Shown piece by piece: positions 1 through 18,198 of a stretch of 20,260 bases of DNA; positions within the stretch are counted from its first letter, which is position 1; each line of letters starts with the position of its first letter. The stretch is from Candidatus Sumerlaeota bacterium (GTDB lineage: Bacteria > Sumerlaeota > Sumerlaeia > JAFGJS01), in assembly GCA_016928995.1 (NCBI GenBank), contig JAFGJS010000133.1, positions 1 through 20,260 on the forward strand, read 5' to 3'. Under the pieces are notes generated by a model, which saw nothing but the letters and a program-made list of their open reading frames with translations, made no database searches and was not told the origin of the DNA. The translations under genes were made by a program, and so were the position numbers.

Positions 1-114
1 CTCGGCGAGCAGGCGGTTGAGTTTCTGGTAGAACGGGCTTCCCGTCGCTTGCGGCAATTCGTCCGCCGCGATCCACAGCTCCAACTGTTGATCATCCGCC
101 TGACCCAGTGACAT
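1..114 (-). CDS. Transposase, N-terminal fragment (runs off left edge)
   Basis: This is the first 38 codons of a minus-strand gene that continues beyond the left edge. The protein starts MSLGQADDQQLELWIAADEL and continues with a G-S-P-F-Y-x-K-L-N-x-L-L-A-E stretch. That arrangement (a polar start, then a PFY..LN.LL segment) is what I recognise from the N-terminus of IS4/IS5/IS1182-like DDE transposases, just before the DUF772-type domain. The ATG at 112-114 is preceded on its own strand by AAGGAG about 9 bases upstream, a good ribosome binding site. The DNA just upstream (about 180-205) resembles the terminal repeat of such elements, which supports the call. The exact IS family cannot be settled from 38 residues. 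The catalytic part is outside the window, so it is not known whether the element is intact. Confidence 0.65.
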   Translation of the reverse strand, partial: MSLGQADDQQLELWIAADELPQATGSPFYQKLNRLLAE

Positions 115-179
115 TGCTCACGCTCCTTGACTCGTTTGCCTGAATAGATCTGAAAACCAGCATCAAGGTTTGCTCCGAA

Positions 180-215
180 AAGAGACTTTTTCAACGGGCT
201 GTTAAGAGACTTTTT
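180..215. repeat. Probable IS end with 12-bp direct repeat
   Basis: The sequence AAGAGACTTTTT occurs at 180-191 and again at 204-215, flanking TCAACGGGCTGTTA. The string CTTTTTCAACGGGCTGTTA closely resembles the terminal inverted repeat that I know from many IS4/IS5/IS1182-type elements. It lies upstream of the transposase start, where the element's right end should be. The outer edge and any target-site duplication cannot be fixed because the other end lies outside the window. The direct repeat may be an accident of insertion or a small duplication at the junction. Confidence 0.4.
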
Positions 216-321: not shown

Positions 322-738
322 TTAGAGATTCTTATATCGATATTCTACGATGAACTCGCAGTCGGGATGCAGGCTTTTTTTCACGGGACAGCCGTTGCCC
401 GCTGCTTCCAGTTTCTGGCGATCCGCTTCGCTCAAATGCGCGGGCAGGTTGATCGTCATGATGAGTTTGGCGATCCGCCGCACGGGATCGGCGACCATTT
501 CCTTCTCCACTTCGGCGGTCATGCCCGCAACGTCGAGTCCGTTGTTCTTCGCCGCGATGCCGATGATCGTCATCGCGCAAGTCGCGGCGGAGACTCCGAC
601 CAGATCCGTCGGCGAAAAGTAGCGACCCTGGCCGCCATTGTCCACCGGCGCCTCGGTGATGATCGACTGTCCCGAAGGTCCATGCGTTGATTTGCAGATT
701 AAATCTCCTTGATACTCCACGGTCGCCTTGACGCCCAT
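322..738 (-). CDS. OsmC/Ohr-family peroxiredoxin
   Basis: The 138-residue protein belongs to the OsmC/Ohr family of cytoplasmic thiol peroxidases, which reduce organic hydroperoxides. Both conserved cysteines are visible: Cys54 in SAATCAMTIIG (peroxidatic) and Cys117 in GNGCPVKKSL (resolving). The family hallmark YFSPTDLVG precedes the first cysteine, and the C-terminus ends in the usual EYRY strand. The length is typical. I chose the ATG at 736-738 because GGAGAA lies just upstream and the protein then begins directly with the first beta-strand (MGVKATVEYQGDL); the longer frame to 864 adds a non-conserved, arginine-rich 42-residue extension. It resembles the YhfA-like OsmC subgroup rather than classical Ohr, but I cannot separate them firmly. 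The gene stands alone and is divergent from the pseudopilin gene at 1064. Confidence 0.85.
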   Translation of the reverse strand: MGVKATVEYQGDLICKSTHGPSGQSIITEAPVDNGGQGRYFSPTDLVGVSAATCAMTIIGIAAKNNGLDVAGMTAEVEKEMVADPVRRIAKLIMTINLPAHLSEADRQKLEAAGNGCPVKKSLHPDCEFIVEYRYKNL

Positions 739-770
739 CGCTGTTTCTCCATTTCGATTTGAATGCCCGC

Positions 771-799
771 ATGCTATTCCGCTGGTTCTCTCTCTGCAA
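771..799 (-). promoter_or_regulatory. Candidate sigma-70 promoter for the osmC-like gene
   Basis: On the minus strand, TTGCAG (794-799) and TAGCAT (771-776) are separated by 17 bases and match the -35/-10 consensus at four positions each. The predicted start would give a 5' leader of about 25 bases before the ATG at 738. The rest of the 739-1063 spacer is AT-rich and contains no convincing gene. Confidence 0.3.
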
Positions 800-993
800 C
801 CGAAAGATTGACTGAATAGCCTCAGGCGCAGTGGGTATTGATTGGTCAAAGCACAGCACCGCAAGCAATTCTTTGGTTCAAAATTTACGCCGCATTAAGA
901 TTGCTAAACTACTGTAATACGGTGAAATAGCCGTTTTTGGATTATTAGAGGAGTTTGACGGATATTTTTTAAAATAAACCATTAAGTTTTATA

Positions 994-3754: not shown

Positions 3755-5458
3755 ATGACCGCTTTGCTTGAAAACATGGTGAACGCCCGGCAAGTGTCGC
3801 CGATGGACCTTGAGACGCTGCGGCAGGAGTTCCCCGACGACAGCGCGGCGACCGAAGAGCGCGTGTTGCGCTGGGTAGCCCGGGAGTATCAAGTCTCGTA
3901 CAGCGATCTGTCGGACATCGCGCCGGATCCGCGCTTGCTCACGCTGTTCCCCGCCCGCGTTTTGTTAAACAAGGAAATGCTGCCGCTACGGCGCGACGGC
4001 GACACCGTGGAAATGGCGGTGAGCCGCCTGTTCGACACGCAAGGATTGGATTTTTTGCAGGCGCAGACGCACCTGAAAATCATCCCGGTGCTGGCGCCCA
4101 GCAAAGCCGTCACCAAAGCGATCAAGACTCACCTCGGAGTCGGCGCGGACACCATCGATCAGCTGGAGGAAACCACTGCGATCCAGGTGATCCAGGACGA
4201 CGATGACGAGGACATGGACCTGAGCGCATCGGCGGACGATGCATCAATCATCAAGTTTGTGAACCAGGTGTTGACTGACGCGATTTCACTGCGCGCGACA
4301 GACGTGCACTTCGAGCCGTTCGAGGACGAACTGCGCATCCGCTACCGCATCGACGGCGTGCTGCAGGACGTGCCGATGCCGTCCCAGCTGAAGCGCTTCC
4401 AGCCTGCTATCGTCTCGCGCGTGAAAATCCTGAGCCACCTGGACATCGCGGAGAAACGCCTGCCGCAAGACGGCCGCATCAAGGTGCGGCTGGAGGGCAA
4501 CGACGTGGACATTCGCGTGTCGCTGATCCCCATGCTGCACGGCGAAGCGGTCGTGATGCGCCTCCTGCGGCAGAACATGACGCTGTTGGGCATCAAGCAA
4601 CTCGGAATGGATCAACGCGACAAGGATCTGTTCGAATCCATGCTGCGCCTGCCGCACGGCATCGTGCTGGTGACCGGTCCGACCGGCAGCGGCAAGACGA
4701 CGACGCTCTATTCCGCGATCAGCCAGATCAACGACTCCGTGCGGAAAATCATCACCATTGAAGATCCCGTGGAATATTACATGAAGGGCGCGAACCAGAT
4801 TCAGGTGTCGCAGAAAACCGGCCTGACTTTCGCGCGCGGACTGCGTTCGATTCTGCGTCACGATCCTGACGTCGTGCTCGTCGGCGAGATTCGCGATTCG
4901 GAAACCGCGGAAATCGCCGTGCAAGCGTCGCTCACCGGCCATCTGGTTTTCTCCACGCTGCACACCAACGACGCCCCGAGCGCCGTCACGCGGCTGGTGG
5001 ACATGGGCATCGAGCCCTTCCTCGTGTCGTCCGCGCTGGAAGGCTGCCTGGCGCAACGCCTGGTGCGTCTGCTTTGCGAGGAATGCAAACGCGAAGACGA
5101 CTCGGAGCTCGTCCGGCAATTCAAGCGCGAAGTCGATTTGCCCGAGGATCTGCCGTTGTATCAGCCGGCCGGCTGCGAGGCATGCCGGAACATCGGCTAT
5201 CTCGGCCGCCATGCTGTGTTTGAAATCATGGCGATGAATGAAGAAATACAATCGCTGACGCTTAAACGATCCTCGACGGCGGAGATTCGCGCGGCGGCGC
5301 GGCGCAACGGCATGCGTTCGCTTGCGGAAGACGGCTGGCGGTTGATTCGCGAGGGCGTCACTACGGTCGATGAAGTTCTGCGCGTGACAAAAGATGAGCG
5401 GTTGAATGGACGCTTGATGAACATGAATGGCAACGGCAACGGGAAAGCGAATGTGTGA
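3755..5458 (+). CDS. gspE: Type II secretion ATPase GspE
   Basis: This 567-residue cytoplasmic hexameric ATPase powers pseudopilus assembly. An N-terminal GspE domain (about 1-140) binds GspL. After an acidic linker (148-155) comes the ATPase core, with Walker A GPTGSGKTTT (308-317), the Asp box IEDPVEY, Walker B LVGEIRD (375-381) and the His box STLHTND. Two CxxC pairs (Cys441/444 and Cys474/477) form the tetracysteine zinc site typical of GspE/PilB. The length is slightly above the usual 500-ish because of the linker and an Asn/Gly-rich tail. ATG 3755 is chosen as the first in-frame start with a purine-rich GGAAAG upstream; M8 (3776) is possible. Its stop overlaps the gspF start. PilB is the alternative name, but the neighbouring gspG-M genes favour T2SS. 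Confidence 0.95.
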   Translation: MTALLENMVNARQVSPMDLETLRQEFPDDSAATEERVLRWVAREYQVSYSDLSDIAPDPRLLTLFPARVLLNKEMLPLRRDGDTVEMAVSRLFDTQGLDFLQAQTHLKIIPVLAPSKAVTKAIKTHLGVGADTIDQLEETTAIQVIQDDDDEDMDLSASADDASIIKFVNQVLTDAISLRATDVHFEPFEDELRIRYRIDGVLQDVPMPSQLKRFQPAIVSRVKILSHLDIAEKRLPQDGRIKVRLEGNDVDIRVSLIPMLHGEAVVMRLLRQNMTLLGIKQLGMDQRDKDLFESMLRLPHGIVLVTGPTGSGKTTTLYSAISQINDSVRKIITIEDPVEYYMKGANQIQVSQKTGLTFARGLRSILRHDPDVVLVGEIRDSETAEIAVQASLTGHLVFSTLHTNDAPSAVTRLVDMGIEPFLVSSALEGCLAQRLVRLLCEECKREDDSELVRQFKREVDLPEDLPLYQPAGCEACRNIGYLGRHAVFEIMAMNEEIQSLTLKRSSTAEIRAAARRNGMRSLAEDGWRLIREGVTTVDEVLRVTKDERLNGRLMNMNGNGNGKANV

Positions 5459-6684
5459 TGGCGACCTTCACGTACAAGGCCCTGGGCGCCAACGGCGAGA
5501 TCAGCGAGGGCAGCATCGAAGCCGCCAAGCGGCAGGATGCGCTGCAGCAATTGGAGCGCCTTGGCCTTTCGCCCATCGGCCTGAAGGAGCGCGAAGCGGA
5601 AACGCCGAAGAAGGCGAAGCATCTTTCCGAAGTCTCCATCATCAAAAAGGCGCCTTTCAAAGCCGTGGAAAATTTCACGCGGCAGTTGGCCAGCCTGCTG
5701 GCCAGCGGCGTTCCGCTCAGCCGCGCTCTGCACCTGGTGCAGCGTGAAGCCGCAAATCCCGTGGCGCAGGCGCAATGGAAAAAAATCCATGATCTCGTCA
5801 TTGACGGATCATCGCTGGCCGACGCGATGGCTCAGCTGCCGCAGACCTTCCCGCGAGTGTATGTGGCGATGGTGCGCGCCGGAGAGACTGGCGGATTCCT
5901 CGATCTCGTGCTGCGGCAAATCGCTGAATTCCAGACCAATGAAAAAGAGCTGCGTTCGAGAGTCGTCGCGGCGCTGATCTATCCCGCCGTGCTGCTGGTG
6001 CTCGCGCTCGGAGTGCTCACGTTCCTGCTCATCTATTTCATCCCCAAGTTCCAGGTGATTTTTCAAGGCTTCGGCGGCGAGCTTCCCCTGCTGACGCAAA
6101 TGATCGTTGGCGCCAGCGCGTTGGCGAAAAAATACGGCATCTTTCTCATCGGCGGCGGCATCGCGCTATATATCGTCAGCCGTCAGTGGATCGAAAGCGA
6201 AGCCGGACGGCGCCAATGGCAGCGCTGGATTTTGCGCGCGCCGCTGTTCGGACTGCTTGTGTCGCGTTTTGCGCTCACGCGCTTCAGCCGCATGCTGGGC
6301 ACGCTGTTCGAGGCCGGCGTGCCGCTGATCCAGGCTTTGCGCGTGGCGCGCGAATCGCTGGGCAATCAAACGCTGATCGACGCCATCGACGACGCGATCC
6401 TGCGCGTGCAGCAAGGCGATCCGCTGGCGGCCAGCCTGCGCGATTGTCCGCAGCTATTCACCGGCTCCATCGTTGAGATGATCTTCGTCGCGGAAGAATC
6501 CGGACGGCTTGGCGAAGAACTGATCCGTATTTCCGGGGAAATGGAAAAGGAACTGGACCGGCAGCTGAAGATTGCTGTTTCGCTTGCGGAGCCGCTGATG
6601 CTGTTCTGCATGGCCGCGTTCATCGGCACGATTTTCATCGGCATGGTGATTCCGATTTTCACGATACAAGACTACATCAAATAA
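5458..6684 (+). CDS. gspF: Type II secretion inner-membrane platform protein GspF
   Basis: This 408-residue polytopic inner-membrane protein links the GspE ATPase to the growing pseudopilus. The N-terminus MATFTYKALGANGEISEG is characteristic of GspF. Two T2SSF domains follow: the first (about 67-195) has FTRQLASLLASGVPLSRAL, and the second (about 270-400) has the parallel FSRMLGTLFEAGVPLIQAL. Three membrane segments are visible, at about 173-195, 226-242 and 379-402. The length is standard. ATG 5458 shares its A with the gspE stop codon (TGATG), implying translational coupling; a GTG one codon upstream is also possible. There are no odd features. Confidence 0.95.
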   Translation: MATFTYKALGANGEISEGSIEAAKRQDALQQLERLGLSPIGLKEREAETPKKAKHLSEVSIIKKAPFKAVENFTRQLASLLASGVPLSRALHLVQREAANPVAQAQWKKIHDLVIDGSSLADAMAQLPQTFPRVYVAMVRAGETGGFLDLVLRQIAEFQTNEKELRSRVVAALIYPAVLLVLALGVLTFLLIYFIPKFQVIFQGFGGELPLLTQMIVGASALAKKYGIFLIGGGIALYIVSRQWIESEAGRRQWQRWILRAPLFGLLVSRFALTRFSRMLGTLFEAGVPLIQALRVARESLGNQTLIDAIDDAILRVQQGDPLAASLRDCPQLFTGSIVEMIFVAEESGRLGEELIRISGEMEKELDRQLKIAVSLAEPLMLFCMAAFIGTIFIGMVIPIFTIQDYIK

Positions 6685-6701: not shown

Positions 6702-7124
6702 ATGAACACACATCGGCGCAACCGCAATAACGTCCGTCGAGGCTTCACGCTGGTCGAAATTCTACTGGTGCTGGTGATTCTCGGCATCCTGGCGGCGGTG
6801 GTGGTTCCGAAGTTCGCCGGCCGCTCCAAGCAAGCCAAAGTCACAGCCGCAGTCACGCAAATCACCAATTTCAAAACGTCGATCGACGCCTTTGAAATCG
6901 ACAACAGCTACTACCCCGAAGCGCTGAATGATTTAGTGGAGCAGCCCTCGGACGCGACGAACTGGCATAAGTACATGGATTCCATCCCCAAGGATCCCTG
7001 GGGCAATGAGTACACCTATGAACAGCCAGGCAAGCACAACGATGATGGCTACGACCTGATGTCCATGGGGCCGGACGGCAAAAAAGGCAATGATGATGAC
7101 ATCACGAATTGGACGACAGACTGA
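6702..7124 (+). CDS. gspG: Major pseudopilin GspG
   Basis: This 140-residue protein is the main subunit of the T2SS pseudopilus. The prepilin leader of 14 residues ends RRG and is cut before FTLVE; Glu at mature position 5 is present, followed by the hydrophobic assembly helix LLVLVILGILAAVVVPKF. The C-terminal half has the GspG layout (DNSYYPEALNDLV, a PKDPWGNEY box, then the calcium-site region SMGPDGKKGNDDDITNW). The length matches the family (about 140-150). A clear AGGAG lies upstream of ATG 6702. It follows gspF after 17 bases. Its 3' end overlaps the predicted gspH start by 35 bases. Confidence 0.96.
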   Translation: MNTHRRNRNNVRRGFTLVEILLVLVILGILAAVVVPKFAGRSKQAKVTAAVTQITNFKTSIDAFEIDNSYYPEALNDLVEQPSDATNWHKYMDSIPKDPWGNEYTYEQPGKHNDDGYDLMSMGPDGKKGNDDDITNWTTD

Positions 7125-7599
7125 TCTGGCTCGCGCGCGCCGCGCCATGACGCTGGTTGAACTGATCATCGTCATGGGCCTGCTGGCGCTGCTGATGGGC
7201 ATCGCCGCGCCAAGGCTCAGCGGATTCATCGGCGGGCGCGGTCTGCGGGACGAAGCGCGGCGCTTTCAGGGACTGACGCGCTACGCCGCGAACTCGGCCG
7301 TCTCGCGCTCAGCGCCGATGATCTTGTGGTTGAATTCCGAAAGCGGCGCCTACGGACTCGACATCGCAACGGGATTCGAGCAGGACGACTGGGGGCCGTT
7401 GCAATTTCAACTTTCGGACGGCTGCCGGTTTGAAGTGGATCCTTCCGCAGCCGACGATAAAGGCCAGGTGGAAATCCGATACGAACCCGACGGCAACGTG
7501 GACGCGGACAGTTTGACGGAAGTGCGCATTTGGCGCCTGGACAAGGAATTCATCACGATTCGGCGCGAGACAAATGGAAACGAATTTGAAAACCAGTGA
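7090..7599 (+). CDS. gspH: Minor pseudopilin GspH
   Basis: This 169-residue protein carries a class III signal RARRA cut before MTLVE, with Ala rather than Gly at -1 and Glu at mature position 5. The hydrophobic helix LIIVMGLLALLMGIAAPRL follows. The soluble part contains EARRFQGLTRYAANSAVSRSAPM, the typical GspH/FimT pattern (helix and first strand), and then beta-rich sequence. GspH is a minor component of the pseudopilus tip region. Three in-frame ATG codons (7090, 7093, 7096) all lie inside the end of gspG; I use the first, with AAAAAGG just upstream. A non-ATG start (CTG at 7126) right after the gspG stop is conceivable. The 35-base overlap is unusually long for this operon. Confidence 0.88.
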   Translation: MMMTSRIGRQTDLARARRAMTLVELIIVMGLLALLMGIAAPRLSGFIGGRGLRDEARRFQGLTRYAANSAVSRSAPMILWLNSESGAYGLDIATGFEQDDWGPLQFQLSDGCRFEVDPSAADDKGQVEIRYEPDGNVDADSLTEVRIWRLDKEFITIRRETNGNEFENQ

Positions 7600-8005
7600 A
7601 CGCGGGAGGATGCAGTGCGATAAGCGGCGCCGGGCCTTCACCCTGATCGAAATCCTGGCCGTAATGGTGTTCATGGCCATCGTGATTCCGGCGGCGGTGC
7701 AAGGCGTCCGCATCGCCGGGCAGTCCGGAAAACTGGCGAATCAAAAACGAATCGCCGCCGAACTCGCGGAAAACCAGCTGGTCCAAACCGTCGTCACGGA
7801 AGAATGGATCAACGGCGAACGCGAGGGGGATTTCGGAGAGGATTGGCCTGGATTTCGCTGGGAGTTGGAAGTGAATGATTGGGAAAGCGATTCGGCGATG
7901 CAGGAATTGACCATCAGCGTTTTTTACACATCGCAAAACAAGGAACACAGCGTGCAGCTTACAACGCTGGCGCAGGAAGAAGACGAGGAGAGCGATTCAG
8001 AATGA
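7574..8005 (+). CDS. gspI: Minor pseudopilin GspI
   Basis: This 143-residue minor pseudopilin is a component of the GspI-J-K tip complex. Its leader ends KRRRA and is cut before FTLIE, again with Ala at -1, followed by the helix ILAVMVFMAIVIPAAVQG. The stretch NQKRIAAELAENQL matches the family's second half of the N-terminal helix (A..lAe.ql). The tail is acidic (EEDEESDSE). ATG 7574 overlaps gspH by 26 bases; the ATG at 7610 has GGGAGG directly adjacent, too close to serve it well, so the upstream start is preferred. The length agrees with GspI (about 125-145). Confidence 0.88.
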   Translation: METNLKTSERGRMQCDKRRRAFTLIEILAVMVFMAIVIPAAVQGVRIAGQSGKLANQKRIAAELAENQLVQTVVTEEWINGEREGDFGEDWPGFRWELEVNDWESDSAMQELTISVFYTSQNKEHSVQLTTLAQEEDEESDSE

Positions 8006-8727
8006 AACGGCGCGCGCCACATACAGGATTCACCCTGATGGAACTGCTGCTGGCGGCGCTGGTTTTCAGCGTTCTGCTTGGCGCGCTGTACTCCGTGTTT
8101 CTTGGCGCGTTTAAACTACGCAACCAGGTCAATGCGCAACTGGATCAAACGACTCCGCGCAACCGCATCATGGAAATTCTCAAGCGCGATTTGAAAGCAA
8201 TGGTTCCTCCCGGCGGCAAATACGCGGACTCGATGCTCGGTGAAAACATCGAATCTTCTTCGGTCCATCAGGACCGCCTTGAGTTTTACACCTCATCCGG
8301 ACGCGTCGTGGAAGACGAGGATGAACCGTGGTGCGACATTCAATACGTCGAATACGAATTGGCGGAAGACGAAACAAAAAGCAGCTCGCGGGAAAAGAGC
8401 TATCAACTGATGCGGAACGTGCGGCGGAATCTGCTTGCGGCCGTGGAGGAAGATCCTGCTGAAACGCCGGTCCTGAGCGGCGTCGCCTCGCTCGAATTCC
8501 GCTTTTACGACGGCGAATCCTGGGTGGATTCATGGGACAGCACAACGAACGATGATGAGTTGCCCTTGGCGATCATGGCGCAGATCGACTTCGCGCAAAA
8601 CGAGCAAGAAGACCTTGCGCCGCAGCCGCCGCTGGTGGTCATCTGCGAACTTGCCGTGCAGACGCAGAACAGCCTCGAAGATTCAGGAAACAGCGAAGAA
8701 GGCAATGGGAACAATGCGACGGAATAA
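8002..8727 (+). CDS. gspJ: Minor pseudopilin GspJ
   Basis: This 241-residue minor pseudopilin has the short leader MKRRAPHTG, cut before FTLMELLLAALVFSVLLGALY with Glu at mature position 5. The region RNRIMEILKRDLKAMVPPGGKY fits the GspJ pattern of a helix ending in RDL....PPGG. Next come beta-strand-rich sequence with YVEYEL and a C-terminal LEFRFYDGESWVDSWDS, the conserved GspJ motif (f.yydg..W...W). ATG 8002 overlaps the gspI stop as ATGA, with GAGGAG about 12 bases upstream. The frame stays open upstream to 7879, but that extension lacks pilin features. The Glu-, Asn- and Gly-rich C-terminal tail (SGNSEEGNGNN) is unremarkable. Confidence 0.9.
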   Translation: MKRRAPHTGFTLMELLLAALVFSVLLGALYSVFLGAFKLRNQVNAQLDQTTPRNRIMEILKRDLKAMVPPGGKYADSMLGENIESSSVHQDRLEFYTSSGRVVEDEDEPWCDIQYVEYELAEDETKSSSREKSYQLMRNVRRNLLAAVEEDPAETPVLSGVASLEFRFYDGESWVDSWDSTTNDDELPLAIMAQIDFAQNEQEDLAPQPPLVVICELAVQTQNSLEDSGNSEEGNGNNATE

Positions 8728-10054
8728 CAGCGACATCAAAGGTTCGGCGCTGATCGTGGTCATGTGGGTCTCCCTCGGACTGGTCGCGCTCGCGTTGCTC
8801 TTCGGGCACTCCATGATGCTGGAATATCGCGCGGCGGAGAACCTGACTGCCGGGAAGCAATCCGAGCAGGCCATTGACGGCGCGCGCCGCTACATCGTCA
8901 ATCTGCTGAGCAATCTGGACCCTCCGGGATACATGCCGGACGAAGAGGAGTATCCGCTGGATGATCTGGAAATCGGCGACGCGCGAGCCTGTGTCATCGG
9001 CCGTAGCGAGAATGAAGACAATCCCGACGATGCAGTGGAATTCCGGCTTGTGGACGAGGCGTCGAAACTGAATTTGAACACCGCCACGCAAGAGATGTTG
9101 CTGGGGCTGCCGGAAATGACCAATGAACTGGCCGCGGCGATCGTTGACTGGCGCGACGAGGACGACGAAGTCACCGACAACGGCGCTGAATCGGATTACT
9201 ACCTGGCCGGCAGCGAGGGCTACTACGCCAAGAACGCGAGATTCGAGTCCATCGATGAACTGCGGCTGCTCAATGGCGGCGACTACGATCTGCTCGTGGG
9301 CGAGGATTACAATCTTAACGGCGTGCTGGATGAAAATGAAAACGACGGCGACGTTTCGCCGCCCGATGACAACGCCGACGGCGTGCTCAATCCGGGCATT
9401 CTGGAATACGTGACGGTCTTCAGCCGCGAATGGAACGTGCAGGACGACGGCTCCGAGCGCATCAACGTGAAAAACGGCGGCAATGAATTGCAGGAGTACC
9501 TCGCTGGCGAACTCGGCGAATCGCGCGCGCAGGCAATCATCAATGCGACGCGGACGTCGGCGAGGAACGTCAACAGCGTGCTGGAGTACTACCTGATCAG
9601 CGGCATGACCGAGGATGAGTTTAAATCGGTGCACGACGGTCTGACCGTATCGGACGAGACCTACACTGAAGGCTTGGTCAATGTGAACACCGCGCCGCAA
9701 TCCGTGCTGACCTGCGTCCCCGGCATCGGCGAGGAGTACGCCGGAACGCTCGTGGCGCAGCGGCTGACGCTGGACACCGAAGCGCTGCATAGCATCGCCT
9801 GGATCGCGTCGGTGCTGCCGCGAGAGAACGCCATTGAAGCCGGACCTTATCTTACGACGCGCTCCCGCCAATTCCGGGCGGATCTCGCGGCCGTTGGGAA
9901 ATACGGGCGAGGCTATCGCCGGGAGGCGTTCGTGATCGACACGGCCGGCGATGACGCCATGGTGGTATATCGCAAGGATTTGTCGCGCCTGGGATGGGCG
10001 CTGGGGCGCGATATGCGCAACGACTTGCTGGAAGAAATGACAGGAGAAGAATAA
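8714..10054 (+). CDS. gspK: Pseudopilus tip protein GspK with EF-hand-like insert
   Basis: This 446-residue tip pseudopilin caps the GspI-J-K complex. The leader MRRNNSDIKG is cut before SALIVVMW; Glu5 is replaced by Val, the known GspK hallmark. The helical domain has SKLNLNTATQEMLLGLP (118-133) and later NVNTAPQSVLTCVPGIG (323-339), the paired helix-hairpin-helix-like repeats of GspK. Between them is a full EF-hand loop, DYNLNGVLDENE (198-209), followed by DDNADGVLN (218-226), a second D-x-N-x-D-G loop. This makes the protein about 100 residues longer than classical GspK (about 330). ATG 8714 overlaps gspJ by 14 bases, with AAGAAGG 11 bases upstream; ATG 8705 is the alternative start. The calcium-binding role of the insert is inferred from the motif. 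Confidence 0.9.
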   Translation: MRRNNSDIKGSALIVVMWVSLGLVALALLFGHSMMLEYRAAENLTAGKQSEQAIDGARRYIVNLLSNLDPPGYMPDEEEYPLDDLEIGDARACVIGRSENEDNPDDAVEFRLVDEASKLNLNTATQEMLLGLPEMTNELAAAIVDWRDEDDEVTDNGAESDYYLAGSEGYYAKNARFESIDELRLLNGGDYDLLVGEDYNLNGVLDENENDGDVSPPDDNADGVLNPGILEYVTVFSREWNVQDDGSERINVKNGGNELQEYLAGELGESRAQAIINATRTSARNVNSVLEYYLISGMTEDEFKSVHDGLTVSDETYTEGLVNVNTAPQSVLTCVPGIGEEYAGTLVAQRLTLDTEALHSIAWIASVLPRENAIEAGPYLTTRSRQFRADLAAVGKYGRGYRREAFVIDTAGDDAMVVYRKDLSRLGWALGRDMRNDLLEEMTGEE

Positions 10055-10056
10055 TC

Positions 10057-11466
10057 ATGTTGGGACTGAAGCAAACTTCATTGCTCTTTGGATGCGCGCT
10101 CGCCGGAAAGCGGCTGTCGCTGGTGGAGCTGCGGCGCGGCGCCGAAGCCATTCATGGACGCAAATCGTTGCAAGCGACGCTTTCCGTGGATCCGCTGAGC
10201 GATGACACCGCGCTGATCGGACGCGACATTCGGAACCGGATGGAGGAAGCCGGCATGCGCGGCGGGCGATGCGTCCTGTGCGCGCCGATGAGCCTGTTTT
10301 ATTCCTGCCTGATCGAAACGCCGCCGATCTCTGGCGAAGACCTGGAGAGTTTTCTCGCGCTGCAAGCGGAACGCAACTTTCCATGGCCGGCGCAGGACTT
10401 GATCTGGCGGAGTATCTTTCATGAAAGCGAGGAGAGGAAACGTTATGCGCTGCTGATCGGCCTGCCGCTGAGCAAAGTCAATCACTTGCGCGAAGCGTTC
10501 GCCGCGGCGGGATTGGAACTCGTTTCCATCCATACGAACATTTCCGCGTTTTCCGGCGCGCAGCCGGCCTCGCGCATCCATTTGCATCTCTCGCCGGAAG
10601 GCGTGGAGATCGGCCTGCTGCGCGAAGACAAACCCGTGGCGCTGCGGATGCTCGCCGGGTGCGATCCATCCAGCCTTGACGCGCGGACGCTGGCGCGAGA
10701 AATGCGCGTCACGCTCGGACAAATTCCGCCTGCGTTGAGCGACACCATTCACGAAGTTCAGATTTCACACGCCACGGACGCGCAGGCGAGGGACGAGGAG
10801 CGCATCCAGCAGTCGCTCGAAGGCATCGGGCTGCGGATGAAGCGTTTTGCTCCTGCCGTCAGGATCGACTGGGATGATCCGGCTGCGGCATTGGCGGCGC
10901 CTTCAGCGCCGATGCTGATCGCCGCGAGAACGCTGTCGGGCGGCTCCGTGGCGCCGAACTTTTTGCCGCCGAAAATCAATCGCTTCCAGCAGTGGCAGTC
11001 CAGCATCGCCTCGCGCCGGATGCTCTGGATCGGCGGGACCGCGGCGATGATCGTCGTTATCGTCGCCCTGATGTTCTTCTGGCAGCAACAGCGGCTGACG
11101 CATCTGGAGCGGGAATTAACTTCGTTGTCTGAAGACGCCCGGCAAGCCGAAACGCTGCAAACCAAGATCCGCGCATATCGTTCTTGGTTCGACCGGTCGG
11201 CGCGCGTCTTGACCATCGCCAACCAACTGACCGGCGCATTTCCCGAAACAGGCTCCGTGTGGGCGCGCGATTTGGAAATCCGAGAGAACGGACAGGTGAT
11301 TTGCAGCGGTTCGGCCCGCAGCAACGCCGACTGGCTGAAGATGCGCGACGCCCTGAGTCAATCGCCCGGTGTGACGAACCTGCAAGTCAATCAAGTGCGC
11401 GGAGATTCGCCGTTGCAGTTTTCATTCAGCTATCAGTGGGATGGGAGGCCGAGTCATGGCATTTAA
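10057..11466 (+). CDS. gspL: T2SS inner-membrane protein GspL (PilM/PilN-like architecture)
   Basis: This 469-residue protein has a cytoplasmic actin-like part (about 8-290), one membrane helix (RMLWIGGTAAMIVVIVALMFFW, about 321-342) and a periplasmic ferredoxin-like part (about 385-463). The cytoplasmic part includes ESFLALQAERNFPWP, reminiscent of PilM/GspL. The periplasmic part has the PilN/GspL pattern SGSARSNADWLKMRDALSQSPGV..L. This corresponds to GspL, a PilM-PilN fusion that recruits GspE to the membrane and pairs with GspM. ATG 10057 is 2 bases after the gspK stop, with AGGAG about 10 bases upstream. It overlaps gspM by 11 bases. Sequence conservation is low, so the call rests on architecture and gene order. 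Confidence 0.8.
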   Translation: MLGLKQTSLLFGCALAGKRLSLVELRRGAEAIHGRKSLQATLSVDPLSDDTALIGRDIRNRMEEAGMRGGRCVLCAPMSLFYSCLIETPPISGEDLESFLALQAERNFPWPAQDLIWRSIFHESEERKRYALLIGLPLSKVNHLREAFAAAGLELVSIHTNISAFSGAQPASRIHLHLSPEGVEIGLLREDKPVALRMLAGCDPSSLDARTLAREMRVTLGQIPPALSDTIHEVQISHATDAQARDEERIQQSLEGIGLRMKRFAPAVRIDWDDPAAALAAPSAPMLIAARTLSGGSVAPNFLPPKINRFQQWQSSIASRRMLWIGGTAAMIVVIVALMFFWQQQRLTHLERELTSLSEDARQAETLQTKIRAYRSWFDRSARVLTIANQLTGAFPETGSVWARDLEIRENGQVICSGSARSNADWLKMRDALSQSPGVTNLQVNQVRGDSPLQFSFSYQWDGRPSHGI

Positions 11467-11995
11467 TAAACGAGAACGCAGCCTCCTGATCATCGTGATG
11501 CTCTGCATCGGCATCCTGGCGGGCGACCGGCTGATTCTGACGCCGCTTTGGAACGCCTGGAGCGAGCGCGCGGAACGCATCTCGGCGTTGGAGGAGCAAC
11601 TCACTGAGGATCGCTCCCTGGCTCAACGCAAAGACAGTCTCGCCGCAACCTGGCAGGACATGCTGGACGCCGATCTGCCGGACGGCACTTCCGCCGCGGA
11701 AGACGCCGTGCTGAAGGCCGTCAGCAACTGGTCGCGCGAAAGCCGCCTGGCCGTCGATTCGCTAAGGCCGTCATGGAGCACGCAGGACAAGGTTGAACTT
11801 CCCCGTCTGGACTGCCGTCTGTCGGCTGACGGCGGCATGAGCGCCATCGCTAAATTCGTTTATGCGCTGGAACAGGATCCGCTGGGAATCCGGGTGGAGA
11901 AAATCGAGTTAACGTCGCTGGACGGCGCCGGACAAAACATATCGTTGGATCTGCACTTCTCGTGCTTGATGTTGGAGGGCGGCAATGAACTGTAA
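11456..11995 (+). CDS. gspM: T2SS inner-membrane protein GspM (PilO-like)
   Basis: This 179-residue bitopic protein has a short basic cytoplasmic start (MAFNKRERS), a membrane helix (about 9-23), a charged coiled-coil stretch (about 36-62) and a periplasmic ferredoxin-like domain that includes MSAIAKFVYALEQDPLGIRVEKIELTS in two parts (128-154). The pattern 'keFvyaLe.dp..irv..iel' is the GspM/PilO signature. GspM pairs with GspL to form the assembly platform. ATG 11456 is favoured over the frame start at 11441 because GGAGG sits 8 bases upstream and the protein then starts with the usual basic residues. It overlaps gspL by 11 bases and the next gene by 11 bases. Confidence 0.78.
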   Translation: MAFNKRERSLLIIVMLCIGILAGDRLILTPLWNAWSERAERISALEEQLTEDRSLAQRKDSLAATWQDMLDADLPDGTSAAEDAVLKAVSNWSRESRLAVDSLRPSWSTQDKVELPRLDCRLSADGGMSAIAKFVYALEQDPLGIRVEKIELTSLDGAGQNISLDLHFSCLMLEGGNEL

Positions 11996-12641
11996 ACGAA
12001 CAAGCGTATGCCTGTGGCTTTTGATCACAATGGCGATGATGCCGCCGGTCATCTCGCACTGCGCGGAAAGTGATTCATTCCCGTCCTTTGATCAGTTCGA
12101 ACGGATCGTGAAGCGCAACATTTTCGATCCCAACCGGCAGGCCGATACGCCGCCCGCCGCGCCCGTCGAGCGTCCCGATCCGCCGCCGACTGTGGAATCC
12201 AAGGAGCGGATTTATCTGATTGGAACATTATTGACGGACCGCAAACAAGTGGCGCTGTTTGAAGGCGATAAAAATGAATATAACAAGGACGTGCAGCAAG
12301 GCGGCCAATTGGAAAAATTCACCGTGGAAGCCATCTCCATCTCCAGCGTGAGCCTGGTCAATGGAGAGAGCAAACTTGATCTGCCTGTGGGATCGGCGCT
12401 TGAAAGAAGCGATGCTGCGGCGGAATGGCGCATCGTCGACGCATCGCCGGCAGGATCATCGTCATCGTCGTCCGATCACTTTGATCGTTCCCGCGACCGA
12501 AGGCCGCCGCCCGATGATTGGAATCGCAGAGATCAATCACCGGGAACAGAAAGATCATCCGCGTCTTCAGGATCGACGGAAGCGCCGGACTCAATTATGC
12601 AACGCTTGATCGAGCGGAGAAAGAGAGAAATGGGAGAATGA
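11985..12641 (+). CDS. gspC: GspC-like periplasmic linker protein
   Basis: This 218-residue protein has an N-terminal hydrophobic segment (about 8-24; signal peptide or anchor). Next is FDQFERIVKRNIFDPNRQ (35-51), which matches the RN(I/L)F motif starting the GspC HR domain. A proline-rich linker (56-70) and the strand pattern IYLIGTLLTDRKQVALFEG (76-94) follow, as in HR domains. GspC bridges the inner-membrane platform to the N0 domain of the secretin. It lacks a PDZ or coiled-coil domain; the C-terminus (155-200) is instead Ser/Asp/Arg-rich and apparently disordered. It is shorter than classical GspC (about 270-300). The gene sits directly before the secretin genes with GGAGG upstream, and this context supports the call. 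A PilP-like protein is the alternative name. Confidence 0.65.
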   Translation: MNCKRTSVCLWLLITMAMMPPVISHCAESDSFPSFDQFERIVKRNIFDPNRQADTPPAAPVERPDPPPTVESKERIYLIGTLLTDRKQVALFEGDKNEYNKDVQQGGQLEKFTVEAISISSVSLVNGESKLDLPVGSALERSDAAAEWRIVDASPAGSSSSSSDHFDRSRDRRPPPDDWNRRDQSPGTERSSASSGSTEAPDSIMQRLIERRKREMGE

Positions 12642-12643
12642 AA

Positions 12644-14086
12644 ATGAAACTGCTATCCATCACATTGGCTTGTTGCGCCGCGCTGATCGGGGGAATCACA
12701 GCTTCCGCTCAGGAAGAGGCGACCAGCGGAACGGTCGGAGTGGAGGCCGTGGCGAACGATGAGTTCACAAGCGATGGCATCCGGTTGAATTTCCGCAACG
12801 CATCGCTGGATTCCGTGCTGGATTACCTGAGCAAGGAAGCCGGATTCGCCGTTGTGCGCATGACGGATGTCAGCGGACGCATCGACCTGCAGAGTCAGCA
12901 GCCGCTGACAGCGGACGAAACGGTGAATCTGCTGAACACCGCGCTCTATGCCAAGGGGTATGCGGCGATCCGCAGCGATCGCATCCTGATGATCGTCCCG
13001 CTCTCCGATGCCCGCAAGCGCGCCATCCCCGTGCGCATCGGCAATGATCCGGAAAAAATTCCGCGCACGGACACAGTCGTCACGCACATCATTCCCGTGC
13101 GCTACGTCGATGCGACAAAGCTGGTTGATAATTTGAACGGCCTGTTGAGTGAAAACGCCACGCTGTCATCCAACGAAAGCAGCAACGCGCTCGTGCTGAC
13201 CGACACGCAGAATAATATCCGTCGAATCACGGAGATCGTGCGGGCGCTGGACACTTCTATTTCGCAGATCACGGCCATCCGAGTTTTTCCATTGCAGTAT
13301 TCCGATTCCAAGGAGATGGCTGATTTGATCAATCAGGTTTTTGAAGTATCGGAAACCACCAACCGGGACAACAACAATAATAGATTTCCTGGGCCGTGGG
13401 GAGGGCGCCGAGGCGGCGGTGATGATAACAATAACAGCAGCGACAGCGTCGCACGCACAGCCTCCATGCGCGTGCTGGCGGCCGCCGATGAACGCACGAA
13501 CGCGGTCGTGGTCAGCGCGCCGGAAGACCTGATGCCGACCATCGAAAAACTGATTACAGACACCGACACAAGCAACGAATTGGTCACGGTGTACCGCGTC
13601 TTCCTGTTGAAACGCGCCGACGCCGAAGACATGGCGAAACTGATTAACGATCTATTCGAGGAGACTTCCGCTTCCAGCAGCGAGGATTCAGGGCCTGGCG
13701 GTCCAGATGGACCGCGTGGATTTTTCCGGCGGATGATGGAACGCTCACAGCAGCAGAGCGCCGACAGCGACGCAAGCCAGCGCAGCCAACAGGAAAGCGC
13801 TGTGCTGGCCGTGGCTGACACTCGCACGAACGCCGTTGTCGTCAGCGCCGTGGAGAGCCAGATGACTCAAATCGAACGGATCATTGAGAATCTGGACGCT
13901 GAAGCAGGCAAAAACAAGGAAGTCTTCGTTTACTCGCTCCAAAACGCGGACGCTGTGACCGTCAAGGAAATTCTAGGGGCAATGTTCAATGATGAGACCA
14001 GAAGCTCGTCCTCCAGCAGTTCGACTTCGAGCAACAGCAGCAGCAGCCGGTCTTCATCATCGACCAATAATTTCGGAAGGAACTAA
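12644..14086 (+). CDS. Secretin N-terminal half (N0-N1-N2-N3 and half of a further N-domain)
   Basis: This 480-residue secreted protein has a signal peptide (MKLLSITLACCAALIG..ASA-QEE). It carries N0 (LNFRNASLDSVLDYLSKEAGF, about 48-120), N1 (145-205), N2 (212-308) and N3 (316-418). Both N2 and N3 contain the secretin motif (AD.RTNAVVVSA at 281-292 and 391-402) and a long low-complexity loop (237-272 and 340-384). A further N-domain begins at FVYSLQNADAVTVKEILGAMF (428-448) but stops in a Ser/Asn tail. There is no secretin barrel domain. ATG 12644 has GGGAG 7 bases upstream; ATG 12638 (ATGA overlap with the previous stop) is equally possible. The barrel is encoded by the next gene, so this is the periplasmic half of GspD. 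The split is not a sequencing frameshift: the next gene has its own ribosome binding site and signal peptide. Confidence 0.85.
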   Translation: MKLLSITLACCAALIGGITASAQEEATSGTVGVEAVANDEFTSDGIRLNFRNASLDSVLDYLSKEAGFAVVRMTDVSGRIDLQSQQPLTADETVNLLNTALYAKGYAAIRSDRILMIVPLSDARKRAIPVRIGNDPEKIPRTDTVVTHIIPVRYVDATKLVDNLNGLLSENATLSSNESSNALVLTDTQNNIRRITEIVRALDTSISQITAIRVFPLQYSDSKEMADLINQVFEVSETTNRDNNNNRFPGPWGGRRGGGDDNNNSSDSVARTASMRVLAAADERTNAVVVSAPEDLMPTIEKLITDTDTSNELVTVYRVFLLKRADAEDMAKLINDLFEETSASSSEDSGPGGPDGPRGFFRRMMERSQQQSADSDASQRSQQESAVLAVADTRTNAVVVSAVESQMTQIERIIENLDAEAGKNKEVFVYSLQNADAVTVKEILGAMFNDETRSSSSSSSTSSNSSSSRSSSSTNNFGRN

Positions 14087-14090
14087 AAAA

Positions 14091-15236
14091 ATGAAACGCA
14101 CAATGCAAATCACTTTTTTGACGTCTTGCCTGACGTTGTTTCTGCTCGGGGTGGGAACGCCTGCATTCGCCCAGGGTCCGGGCGGTATGGGAGGAATGAG
14201 GGGGGGAAGCTCTAACGGAAACTCCTCCAGTTCCACGGAAGAGGTCAATGAAGCGGTCATCGAATATGACGATGAGACCGGACAGGTGATTGTCATCGCG
14301 GACGAGGCTACGAATGCGAAAATCTCGCGTATCATTCAAAGTCTGGACCGGCCTGTGCCGCAAGTCCTCATCAAGGTGCTCTTCCTCGAAGTGACGCACA
14401 CCAATGATCTGGACCTGGGCATCGAAGGATCCATCAGCTTCGACACGGTGGAGGATGCACGCACGGCGTATTCCAATTTCGATCTGCTGGATCAAACGCG
14501 CGGTGGATTCCTCACGATCATTGACGACGATGTGGAAGTCACCCTGCGCGCCATCGCCGAACAATCGAAACTGGAGGTGCTTTCGCGCCCCTCGGTGCTG
14601 ACGCGCAACAATTGCGAAGCGACGATCACCGTGGGCCAGGAGGTGCCGTTTATCACCAACAGCCGCATCACGGACGACGGCCAGACGATCAACACTGTTG
14701 AATACGAAGACGTCGGCATCATTTTGACCGTCACGCCGCGGATCGGCCAGAACGGGCTGGTGGAAATGGAAGTCATTCCGGAAATCTCCACAATCAGCGG
14801 CGAAACGATCGCCATCAGCGACACGGTGAATGCGCCCGTGATCGCCAAGCGCTCGGCCGAAACGCGCGTCGTCGTGGAGAACGGCCACACCGTCGTCATC
14901 GGCGGCATGATGGAAGATCACGACACTGAAACCGTGCAAAAGATCCCGCTATTAGGCAGCATCCCGTTGATCGGCGCGCTTTTCCGCCGCACGGTCACGG
15001 AAAAAAGCAAGACGGAACTGCTGATTTTCCTCACCCCGCACGTGGTGGAGAGCGCGGAAGACTTGCGTCAAGTTTCGCAATCCGAGTATAAGAAGGCGCA
15101 GAAAGCGGATATTGTTTTTACGGAAGAGCAGAAAGATAAATACATTGATAATCTGCCGCGTGATGAAACAAAAAGAACAGTGCCGCAATTGATTTATCGC
15201 GCGGAATCATGGCTCTACGATCTGCTTGCATTCTGA
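14091..15236 (+). CDS. gspD: Secretin C-terminal half (outer-membrane barrel domain)
   Basis: This 381-residue protein has its own signal peptide (MKRTMQITFLTSCLTLFLLG, cleavage after AFA at 27), a Gly/Met and Ser/Asn-rich stretch (29-48) and the second half of an N-domain (GQVIVIADEATNAKISRIIQ, 64-83). The secretin core (about 88-318) follows, with QVLIKVLFLEVT, LSRPSVLTRNNCEATITVGQ with EVPFIT, the signature IPLLGSIPLIGALFR (285-299) and LLIFLTPHVV. It forms the outer-membrane channel of the T2SS. A short C-terminal tail (320-381), rich in charged residues, could act as an S-domain or pilotin-binding region. ATG 14091 comes 4 bases after the stop of the N-half gene, in another frame, with GGAAGG upstream. 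Classical GspD is one chain of about 650 residues; together the two halves make about 860 residues. Confidence 0.9.
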   Translation: MKRTMQITFLTSCLTLFLLGVGTPAFAQGPGGMGGMRGGSSNGNSSSSTEEVNEAVIEYDDETGQVIVIADEATNAKISRIIQSLDRPVPQVLIKVLFLEVTHTNDLDLGIEGSISFDTVEDARTAYSNFDLLDQTRGGFLTIIDDDVEVTLRAIAEQSKLEVLSRPSVLTRNNCEATITVGQEVPFITNSRITDDGQTINTVEYEDVGIILTVTPRIGQNGLVEMEVIPEISTISGETIAISDTVNAPVIAKRSAETRVVVENGHTVVIGGMMEDHDTETVQKIPLLGSIPLIGALFRRTVTEKSKTELLIFLTPHVVESAEDLRQVSQSEYKKAQKADIVFTEEQKDKYIDNLPRDETKRTVPQLIYRAESWLYDLLAF

Positions 15237-15263: not shown

Positions 15264-16832
15264 ATGAAAGTCGAGGCAAATAAAGTGAGCACACGGTCCA
15301 TCGGTTTATACATCGCCCTTTTTGCGCTCTGGGTGCTGATCTGCGGCTGGATGTTCGCGGAGCATCAACGTCTGGATCACGACGAACGCGAAAAACTCCT
15401 CACGCGGGCGCACGACATCTCGTCCACCGTCGGTGTCGTGATCCGCTCGCAGGGGCGTTTCGGCATTATTCCGCAGCCGCATCTGGACGCCATCCTGCAG
15501 GAGCTCAACACGCTCAGCGAGCTGAAAACCGTCGCCCTGATCAACTCTGCCGGCGAGGTGGTCTCCGAACTGGGCGAACCGATGGAGATCGATATCAACA
15601 GCGACATTCTTTCTCGCGACGGCTCATACTGGCAGGAGGACGGCGTGCTGGTGGTCAACGTGGTGGATTTCGGTCCCAATACGCGCGATGATGGAACCAC
15701 GCGTCCCGCGACGATTCTGATCCGCGAGGAAGACATTGCCACATCCGATACGGCGTCCGCCGAGGAGGACGACGAGGGGCGGGATTGGGGGCGTCGCGGA
15801 CCGCCGCCGCCTCAGGATGAGAGCGGGCAGAACACGGAGACGCGCAATAATAATTTCCCGCCGCCGCCTCCGCCGGACGATGACAGCAATCCGGAAAGAC
15901 GGCGCGGACGGAAGTTCTGGCATGACTTCCGGCGTTTCGTGCGAAACGCCAGCGGCGAGGATTGGGATCGTCTGCGCCAAAAGCGCGGTTTGTACGGATT
16001 GGCGCTCCGCATCTCGACGGAATCGCTGGAACAGACATTGCGATCAGATGGACTGATGCGTTTCGGTCTCAGCGCATTCTCGCTGGCAGCCATGCTCGGA
16101 TTGGGCGTCGCCTGGCGTAATTTCGAGAAGACCAATCAATTGCAATTGCGGCTGGTGCGCCTGGATGAACTGAACAATCACCTACAGGAAATGAATATCG
16201 CCTCGGCCGGACTGGCCCATGAGACGCGCAATCCGCTCAACATCATCCGCGGCATCGCTCAGACGGTCTCCAAGGAACTGGAGCCTGACGCTGAAGCGCG
16301 CATAAAGCTGCAACAGATTGTGGCCGAGGCGGATCGCGTCGCCGGGCGGTTGAATGAGTTCATCAACTATTCCAAACCCCTGGAGCCCAAACTCAGCCCC
16401 GTGCGTCTGTCGCAGATCGTCGAGGACGTACGGCGCACGCTGGAAGCCGATCTGGAGGAAAAATCCATCGTCCTGTCGATCGACGGAGCGGATTTTACCG
16501 TCGAAGCCGACGAAATGCACTTGCGTCAGGCGCTGTTTAACCTCATGCTGAACGCAATTCAGGCGACGCCGGAAAATGGTGAGGTTCGTGTGGCGTGGCA
16601 GTCGGCTGGCGGACGCGCGCAAGTCGAAGTAGCCGACAATGGCTCCGGAGTGGATCCTTCGATTGTTTCGACGCTCTTCAAGCCATACGTCACCACGCGC
16701 GAAGACGGCACGGGCCTGGGCCTGGCCATCGTGCGGCAGATCGCTCTGGCGCATCACTGGGACGCGGTCCATCAGGCCAACCAGCCCAATGGCGCGATTT
16801 TCCGGCTGCAAGGCATGAAAATCATCGGCTGA
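15264..16832 (+). CDS. Membrane sensor histidine kinase with Pro-rich sensor insert
   Basis: This 522-residue sensor has two membrane helices (about 13-32 and 265-283) flanking a periplasmic region of about 230 residues. That region has a PAS/Cache-like start (LSELKTVALINSAGEVVSEL, 84-103) and then an acidic, Pro/Arg/Asn-rich insert (about 165-215) with runs of four and six prolines. The cytoplasmic kinase part has the H-box GLAHETRNPLNIIRG (His319), the N-box LFNLMLNAIQATP, G1 VADNGSG and G2 DGTGLGLAIV. It resembles the NtrB/ZraS/PilS group, which partners NtrC-type regulators, and such a regulator follows 13 bases later. ATG 15264 has only a weak GCAGG upstream; the in-frame GTG at 15285 has GAGG 8 bases upstream and may be the true start. 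Placement right after the secretin suggests that it monitors the secretion apparatus or envelope (inference). Confidence 0.88.
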   Translation: MKVEANKVSTRSIGLYIALFALWVLICGWMFAEHQRLDHDEREKLLTRAHDISSTVGVVIRSQGRFGIIPQPHLDAILQELNTLSELKTVALINSAGEVVSELGEPMEIDINSDILSRDGSYWQEDGVLVVNVVDFGPNTRDDGTTRPATILIREEDIATSDTASAEEDDEGRDWGRRGPPPPQDESGQNTETRNNNFPPPPPPDDDSNPERRRGRKFWHDFRRFVRNASGEDWDRLRQKRGLYGLALRISTESLEQTLRSDGLMRFGLSAFSLAAMLGLGVAWRNFEKTNQLQLRLVRLDELNNHLQEMNIASAGLAHETRNPLNIIRGIAQTVSKELEPDAEARIKLQQIVAEADRVAGRLNEFINYSKPLEPKLSPVRLSQIVEDVRRTLEADLEEKSIVLSIDGADFTVEADEMHLRQALFNLMLNAIQATPENGEVRVAWQSAGGRAQVEVADNGSGVDPSIVSTLFKPYVTTREDGTGLGLAIVRQIALAHHWDAVHQANQPNGAIFRLQGMKIIG

Positions 16833-16845
16833 CGCTAAGGCTAGC

Positions 16846-18198
16846 ATGGGCGAACATCATCGCAACATCCTGATCGTGGACGACGATCCGGGGCAGCGCA
16901 GTCTGCTGGCGGCGCTGCTGGAGCGGCGTGGTTATCACATTCTCATGGCGGACAATGCCCAAGTCGCCCTCGAGATCTTCCGTTCCAAGCCGGTCCATAT
17001 GATCATCTCTGACGTGCGCATGCCCGGCATGAGCGGACTCGATATGTTGCGCGAAATCCGCGACCAGTCGCCGGACGTCCCCGTGCTGATGGTCACCGCT
17101 TATCCCGAAATCCGCGACGCGGTCAACTCCATCCGCGACGGCGCCGTCAACTACCTCGAAAAGCCGATCGACCTGGAGGAATTACAGCGTCTGATTGAGC
17201 AGACGCTCATCAGCGGGCAAACGCCGGATGACGAGTCCGGGCCGGACGCCGAAGAGAAATTGCCTTCTGGCGTCGTAGCGATGAGCGCCGCGATGCGCAG
17301 CGTTTTCCGTGACGCGGCCGTTGTCGCGCCCACCGACACGCGCATCCTGATCACCGGCGAAAGCGGAACGGGCAAGGAGGTTATCGCGGATTTTATTCAC
17401 GCCCACAGCGCCCGCGCGGAGGGTCCGCTGGTCAAGATCAACTGCGCCGCTTTTCCCGAGACGCTGCTGGAGAGCGAGCTCTTCGGTCATGAGAAAGGCG
17501 CCTTCACCGGCGCCGCTCAGCAGCGCATCGGCCGCTTTGAGGAAGCCAGCGGCGGCGCCATGTTTCTCGATGAGATCGGCGAGATGCCCTTGCCGTTGCA
17601 AGCCAAACTGCTGCGCGTGATTCAGGACGGCGCCTTTCAGCGGCTGGGATCGAACCGGACGATCATGACCAACGCCCGTATCCTGGCCGCCACAAACCGC
17701 AATCTGGAGCAGGAAGTGAAGGAGAAGCGCTTCCGCGAGGATCTGCTCTTTCGTCTTAACGTCTTCGAGATTTACGTCCCGCCCCTGCGCGAACGCGCCG
17801 ATGACATCGTGCCGCTGGCCAACGCCTTCGCCGCGAAATATTCCAACGGCCGCTTTCGTTTCTCCGCGGAAACCATCAGCTGCCTCACGCTTTACGATTG
17901 GCCGGGCAACGTGCGCGAGCTGGCCAACGCAATGGAACGCGCCTGCCTGATCTCGCGCGGCGGCATCATCCTGCCCGAACACCTGCCCAAGCGCGTCAAC
18001 GCCGCCGTGATGGAACTGAAACACGAGGCAGACGGCGTCAAGCGCAGCCGCATGGAGGACGTCGAACGCAGCGTGATTCTGCAAACGTTGCAGCAAAACA
18101 ACCACAACCGGTCCGAAACCGCCCGTCAACTCGGCATCAGCCGCCGCACACTGCAATATAAACTGCAGCACTACAAAGAACAAGGCTTTGACGTTTGA
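16846..18198 (+). CDS. NtrC-family sigma-54-dependent response regulator
   Basis: This 450-residue activator has three domains. The receiver (about 7-120) has VDDDPGQ, phospho-acceptor Asp56 in ISDVRMPGMSG, Thr84 and Lys106 in YLEKPI. The AAA+ sigma-54 activation domain (about 140-370) has Walker A GESGTGKE (171-178), the sigma-54 contact loop GAFTGA (218-223), Walker B GGAMFLDEIGEM, and then RFREDLLFRLNVFEI and WPGNVREL. The Fis-type helix-turn-helix (about 405-450) ends RSETARQLGISRRTLQYKL. All catalytic residues are present, so it should be active. An AAGG precedes ATG 16846, 13 bases after the kinase stop. Its probable target is the sigma-54 promoter at 3012-3027; this is inference. No convincing terminator is visible directly after it. 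Confidence 0.95.
   Translation: MGEHHRNILIVDDDPGQRSLLAALLERRGYHILMADNAQVALEIFRSKPVHMIISDVRMPGMSGLDMLREIRDQSPDVPVLMVTAYPEIRDAVNSIRDGAVNYLEKPIDLEELQRLIEQTLISGQTPDDESGPDAEEKLPSGVVAMSAAMRSVFRDAAVVAPTDTRILITGESGTGKEVIADFIHAHSARAEGPLVKINCAAFPETLLESELFGHEKGAFTGAAQQRIGRFEEASGGAMFLDEIGEMPLPLQAKLLRVIQDGAFQRLGSNRTIMTNARILAATNRNLEQEVKEKRFREDLLFRLNVFEIYVPPLRERADDIVPLANAFAAKYSNGRFRFSAETISCLTLYDWPGNVRELANAMERACLISRGGIILPEHLPKRVNAAVMELKHEADGVKRSRMEDVERSVILQTLQQNNHNRSETARQLGISRRTLQYKLQHYKEQGFDV

Follow-up and report, generated by a model that had tools for sequence, protein, structure and literature searches.

A type II secretion system secretin encoded as two chains and cut inside a ring-building motif in Sumerlaeota and several other bacterial phyla

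Introduction

GspD, the outer-membrane secretin of the type II secretion system (T2SS), is classically a single chain. In T2SS secretins a C-module (N3 and the barrel, fifteen-fold) is distinguished from an N-module (N0-N2), and the mismatch between the secretin and its twelve-fold inner-membrane partners is unsolved (PMC10550240). Secretins encoded in two genes have been described for the rhizobial type III secretion system (T3SS) and for T3SS-2 of P. syringae (PMC3973906, PMC3574062), and a three-gene version of the rhizobial secretin has been reported in B. elkanii (PMC3973906, PMC3574062, PMC3459982). The rhizobial pair, RhcC1 and RhcC2, has been explained as a partial gene replacement, that is, a composite of two secretins (PMC3459982). 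In the mitochondrial T2SS, GspD is spread over several proteins (GspDN1-GspDN3), among them two that each correspond to half a Secretin_N domain (PMC8134430). Here we analyse a GspD encoded by two adjacent genes, for GspD-N and GspD-C, in a stretch of 20,260 nucleotides from Candidatus Sumerlaeota bacterium (assembly GCA_016928995.1, contig JAFGJS010000133.1; the whole stretch is referred to below as the window), together with its relatives in other genomes.

Results

The genes for GspD-N and GspD-C lie in different frames with 4 bases between them, and AAGGA is found upstream of the second ATG (Table 1); an in-frame ATG at 12638 is an alternative start for GspD-N. GspD-N carries an N0 domain of the GspD type (PF21305, 40.9 bits against a Pfam cut-off of 27) and has, as a GspD should, several ring-building motifs (RBMs), namely three whole PF03958 (Secretin_N) stretches, to which two halves are added by the two chains. 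The first half stands ahead of the Ser/Asn tail of GspD-N, and the second precedes the secretin barrel of GspD-C, where the Pfam match to Secretin_N is limited to profile positions 26-69. As GspD-N carries N0 and three whole RBMs, the cut RBM is the fourth, in the N3 position adjoining the barrel. On the NCBIfam model of GspD (TIGR02517), GspD-N spans positions 1-332 (213.6 bits) and GspD-C positions 273-600 (252.6 bits). Neither chain reaches the cut-off of 351.35 that marks a one-polypeptide GspD, which is passed by a one-chain Sumerlaeota relative (421.4 bits; L047, where L and G numbers are our handles). The GspD secretin of the window is encoded as two chains, each with an export signal of its own as read from the sequence.

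This form is not confined to one operon, but is the common form of GspD in several phyla. We collected 126 non-identical split pairs, from records titled Sumerlaeota, Hydrogenedentota, Omnitrophota, Lentisphaerota and Verrucomicrobiota. In all 126 the cut falls in the same loop of the RBM, between alpha1 and beta2, and both halves are retained. The N chain ends with beta1-alpha1 and a Gly/Ser/Thr/Asn-rich tail 32-70 residues long, while the C chain consists of a signal peptide, a linker and then beta2-beta3-alpha2 ahead of the barrel. Conservation of either half is about that of the neighbouring intact domain. In 125 of the 126 pairs the start of the C part resembles a signal peptide under a simple hydrophobicity rule, and the median intergenic gap is 39 bases. 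This T2SS is present in 15 of 39 genomes of the Sumerlaeota class; of the 14 genomes with a readable arrangement, window included, 13 are split and one (L047, in genome G003) is fused. From the order of a record titled Limisphaerales, 67 loci were fetched, and every one of them, counting L175, is split. At the position of the cut, 25 fused relatives, mostly Planctomycetota, carry a Gly/Ser/Thr/Ala-rich loop 34-97 residues long. A preliminary description, made from the letters of the window alone, had proposed a secretin of two separately exported chains, cut inside an N-domain where intact RBMs carry a low-complexity loop, and had suggested looking for adjacent gene pairs with the same break; the gene pair of the window, the fused relatives and the 126 pairs bear out each of these points.

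The genes of a pair are separated by a few to tens of bases, as might be expected if a single protein were made by frameshifting or stop read-through, or were hidden by an undetected sequencing error. However, the relative frames of the pairs are spread over the three phases (45:47:34), the C parts carry signal peptides, Shine-Dalgarno-like bases precede the C start in 11 of 11 inspected relatives besides the window, and two split pairs (L138 and L215) come from genomes assembled as one contig, of 4.9 and 4.2 Mb. Taken together, these observations exclude a sequencing or assembly error and a conserved recoding signal, and we give a single protein next to no credence. Nor is the break a chance event, being the same in 126 of 126 pairs. 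The preliminary description had also pointed out that a full-length GspD elsewhere in the genome might serve the operon. None is found among the five further secretins of the same draft genome (92.5% complete): one is a PilQ (adjoining pilM and pilO), one is of the Tad type and three have other architectures, and in none are a GspD N0, several RBMs and a barrel combined. A 1,700-residue protein of the same genome (L222:9342-14441, minus strand) carries tetratricopeptide repeats and Secretin_N and terminates in a secretin barrel.

Compatibility of the halves was analysed with AlphaFold2 on pairs of relatives whose genes are in one frame, the stop being read through to give a tethered chain; the alignment rows came from split loci only. 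Across the relatives' models, beta1 and alpha1 of the first half have a predicted local distance difference test score (pLDDT) of 85-92, and the tail and signal region is disordered. L062, a pair from an Omnitrophota-titled record, gave a model of 864 residues in which beta1-alpha1 and beta2-beta3-alpha2 both have a pLDDT of about 83-88 and are separated by some 100 disordered residues. Its split domain (388..552) superposes on an RBM of HofQ (2.4 A over 63 residues), and its stretch 389..818 on GspD and PilQ chains that start at N3. For a Sumerlaeota pair (L059) the split domain was modelled in isolation (209 residues), with the halves mostly at pLDDT 85-93. When superposed jointly (model 6..202), the halves match ExeD (1.0 A over 59 residues, Z 8.9) and V. 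cholerae GspD (residues 264-340; 1.4 A over 59 residues). A structure search with this domain returned secretins in all 33 best rows (Z 7.5-9.3), and the next, unrelated ones had Z of at most 7.0. In these models of tethered relatives both halves fall into one RBM. The preliminary description had proposed that the split domain reassembles in the periplasm by strand complementation, and had named models with the two fragments in unrelated positions as a refutation; the models obtained do not show this.

In a tree of the barrel, split and fused forms are separated by one change (Shimodaira-Hasegawa-like approximate likelihood ratio test, 99), and still by one when one-chain secretins of other phyla, with long branches, are included as an outgroup. 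Because one-chain GspD is general elsewhere, we infer the polarity as fission of a one-chain ancestor. The fused Sumerlaeota copy is nested among planctomycete copies, and this placement suggests transfer. Three-chain secretins form four separate clusters (L045/L046; L111 and L167; L140; L160, L161 and L183). The second cut interrupts N2 in every cluster, at the loop joining alpha1 to beta2, and leaves a middle chain that bears a new signal peptide. The barrel tree needs four changes for these forms. Some of them might have been losses, but as every cluster is nested among two-chain relatives, four gains make the simpler history. On the four-gain reading, the tree would record five fissions at the same kind of site. 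A candidate for a further split, L103, was left out of the count of second cuts, as its N part seems to be interrupted by a frameshift.

Several other features were noted. The motif L-[STN]-[STNQ]-R occurs in the low-complexity GspD-N tails of 69 of the 126 pairs, compared with 2-8 when the tails are shuffled. It is found mainly in Verrucomicrobiota and Omnitrophota records (for example L070, L076 and L138-L216) and is not conserved in the window. In many C parts RxYxNxT stands immediately before beta2, and both may be docking motifs. A GspD-N of another locus (L048 of genome G005, 1-2301) has N0, five Secretin_N stretches and a half, so that the ring number differs among species. Verrucomicrobiota genomes G431 (L217), G491, G492 and G524 have open frames of about 4,100-4,270 residues with a GspD-like barrel.

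The split pair of the window closes a complete T2SS operon in the order gspE-F-G-H-I-J-K, a GspL-like gene, gspM, a GspC-like gene and the two secretin genes (Table 1). The pseudopilin matches are weak for GspH (E 0.0069) and stronger for GspI (T2SSI, E 9e-6) and GspJ (T2SSJ, E 1.1e-14), with N_methyl on each. The homology region (HR) domain of GspC is the usual partner of the GspD N0. Directly downstream of the secretin genes (15264-18198) are a sensor kinase and a sigma-54-dependent response regulator, which may be regulators of the T2SS. Upstream of the operon lie a GspG-like protein with a prepilin-type N-terminus, recognised by eye (1013-1720), and a GDSL esterase (1802-2737), which could be a secreted substrate.

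Table 1. Features of the split secretin and of the T2SS operon in the window
Feature	Position	Strand	Details
GspD-N	12644..14086	+	480 aa; PF21305 + 3x PF03958; signal peptide, N0, 3 complete RBMs, half RBM, Ser/Asn tail
First half (beta1-alpha1) of split RBM	13916..13987	+	KEVFVYSLQNADAVTVKEILGAMF; first 24 residues of fourth motif; aligned with 125 other split pairs
GspD-N low-complexity C-terminal tail	13988..14083	+	32 aa, Ser/Asn; disordered in relatives' models
GspD-C	14091..15236	+	381 aa; own signal peptide, Gly/Ser/Asn linker, half RBM, secretin barrel; PF00263 171.9 bits
GspD-C signal peptide	14091..14171	+	MKRTMQITFLTSCLTLFLLGVGTPAFA
Second half (beta2-beta3-alpha2) of split RBM	14247..14348	+	NEAVIEYDDETGQVIVIADEATNAKISRIIQSLD; pLDDT 83-93 in relatives' models
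Secretin barrel domain	14553..15050	+	PF00263, E 4.5e-51 in genome search
GspE ATPase	3755..5458	+	PF00437, E 1.3e-136
GspF	5455..6684	+	PF00482
GspG major pseudopilin	6702..7124	+	PF08334
GspH, GspI, GspJ pseudopilins	7090..8727	+	open reading frames 7090-7599, 7574-8005, 7879-8727
GspK	8552..10054	+	PF21687, PF03934
GspL-like	9994-11466	+	weak PilM-like match
GspM	11441-11995	+	T2SS_GspM E 1e-8
GspC-like protein	11985..12641	+	putative HR domain; NCBIfam GspC_delta E 1.6e-5, far below cut-off; directly upstream of GspD-N

Discussion

We consider it very probable that these genes encode a two-chain T2SS secretin that arose by an old gene fission and whose half-domains associate into one RBM in the periplasm. 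Both chains would be exported separately via their own signal peptides. GspD-N contributes the periplasmic rings, N0 and the RBMs, together with beta1-alpha1 of the barrel-adjacent RBM, and GspD-C contributes beta2-beta3-alpha2 of that RBM and the barrel. Most likely the half-domains meet in the periplasm and together make up a single RBM at the barrel base, so that N and C chains would pair one to one and the periplasmic vestibule would be joined to the barrel non-covalently, with no peptide bond. Fission may have been tolerated at this point because the RBM already has a long disordered loop between alpha1 and beta2, which becomes two free tails. Pore assembly reportedly depends on N3 (PMC8134430), and the N chain would therefore also license assembly of the barrel.

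Several results weigh against reassembly. The modelled chains are homologues from relatives and not those of the window, their halves were tethered, and the fold is one that the network has often seen. The long L062 model has an overall pLDDT of 65.4 and a predicted template modelling score of only 0.40. Foldseek alone, with the isolated domain, gave no match with E <0.001, and its alignments mostly cover one half. Mean-field direct-coupling analysis between the halves of the 126 pairs gave no covariation signal, at tiny effective numbers of sequences, and mutual information between the halves, compared with intact RBMs and with shuffled partners, was not above that of shuffled partners, at effective numbers of 10-14, which are too small for this test to count as a negative. 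Conservation of each half could come from other contacts. The lack of covariation would suit a real fission after which the halves do not reassemble, the N chain being held only by GspC and by ring-ring contacts, and the halves being remnants or binding elsewhere. Remnants, however, would be expected to be lost in some lineages, yet all 126 pairs keep both at full conservation, and the models pack the halves together; we therefore regard this explanation as unlikely. It is more improbable still that a half from one subunit pairs with that of its neighbour, by strand exchange around the ring, or that there are fewer N chains than barrels or the numbers are otherwise unequal, so that the split alters stoichiometry and does not simply remove a peptide bond. 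A split chain would permit this, and the 15:12 mismatch between secretin and inner-membrane partners, with a C15:N12 arrangement, has been discussed for the T2SS (PMC10550240), but an N3 ring of complete RBMs needs one N half for each C half.

Along with one-to-one reassembly, we put forward a bolder proposal, to which we assign a low probability: the split would free the periplasmic rings from the barrel, either with N and C chains in a ratio other than 1:1 or with N chains joining after the barrel has reached the outer membrane. If so, complementation of the split domain would be both a licence for assembly and a way around the differing symmetries of the fifteen-fold secretin and its inner-membrane partners, and the recurrent extra cuts at N2 would make each ring exchangeable.

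If the halves do reassemble, evolution would repeatedly have acted in the manner of split-protein engineering, with a domain cut at a loop and its halves meeting again in one of the largest outer-membrane machines. In the split secretins nature provides the N-module and the C-module as separable pieces, through which the stoichiometry of T2SS secretins and the order of their assembly, both disputed, become open to test. In addition, because neither chain passes the curated GspD threshold, annotation misses these systems in the very groups where the split form is common.

With the classical GspD proteins (PulD, XcpD, ExeD, EpsD) the system described here shares N0, RBMs, the barrel and a gsp operon in which the secretin stands beside a gspC-like gene, and the relatives' models match solved GspD chains. 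It differs from these single-chain secretins in having two or three chains, an additional RBM and a cut inside an RBM. The split also departs from the division into C-module and N-module, as it runs through N3 and not between N2 and N3. The nearest fused relatives are the one-chain GspD of Planctomycetota/Phycisphaerae (for example L082-L125) and of Sumerlaeota genome G003, which have the same domain order and a long low-complexity loop at the cut, but are single chains with one signal peptide.

The rhizobial RhcC1/RhcC2 secretin likewise extends over two genes, with N-terminal domains on one and the barrel on the other. We rejected the NGR234 pair as a precedent for a cut domain, as it is a composite of different secretins in which no domain is cut: RhcC1 has N0 and one near-complete RBM, and RhcC2 (L135:35170-36597 of pNGR234a, minus strand) is a Tad-type secretin with N-terminal domains of its own, pil_N and BON, so that the rhizobial 'split secretin' amounts to a Tad-type secretin plus a T3SS N-terminal piece. 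Its genes belong to a T3SS and are not adjacent, whereas those of the window are adjacent and part of a T2SS operon. Unlike RhcC2, GspD-C has nothing more than half an RBM ahead of the barrel, its best-scoring model is that of GspD, and it is not a Tad-type secretin with N-terminal domains of its own.

The multi-chain GspD of mitochondria is the nearest conceptual precedent. That system is eukaryotic and has lost N0, and its GspD itself is without N0-N3, whereas GspD-N of the window keeps N0 and the matching halves are encoded in adjacent genes. The preliminary description knew of no secretin divided in this way. Split secretins as such were already known, and in this respect the statement needs correction; the only cases that emerged from the open-licence literature were those of the T3SS and of the mitochondrial T2SS, and no account was found there of a T2SS secretin of bacteria with a cut inside an RBM, or of the spread of such a form over these phyla.
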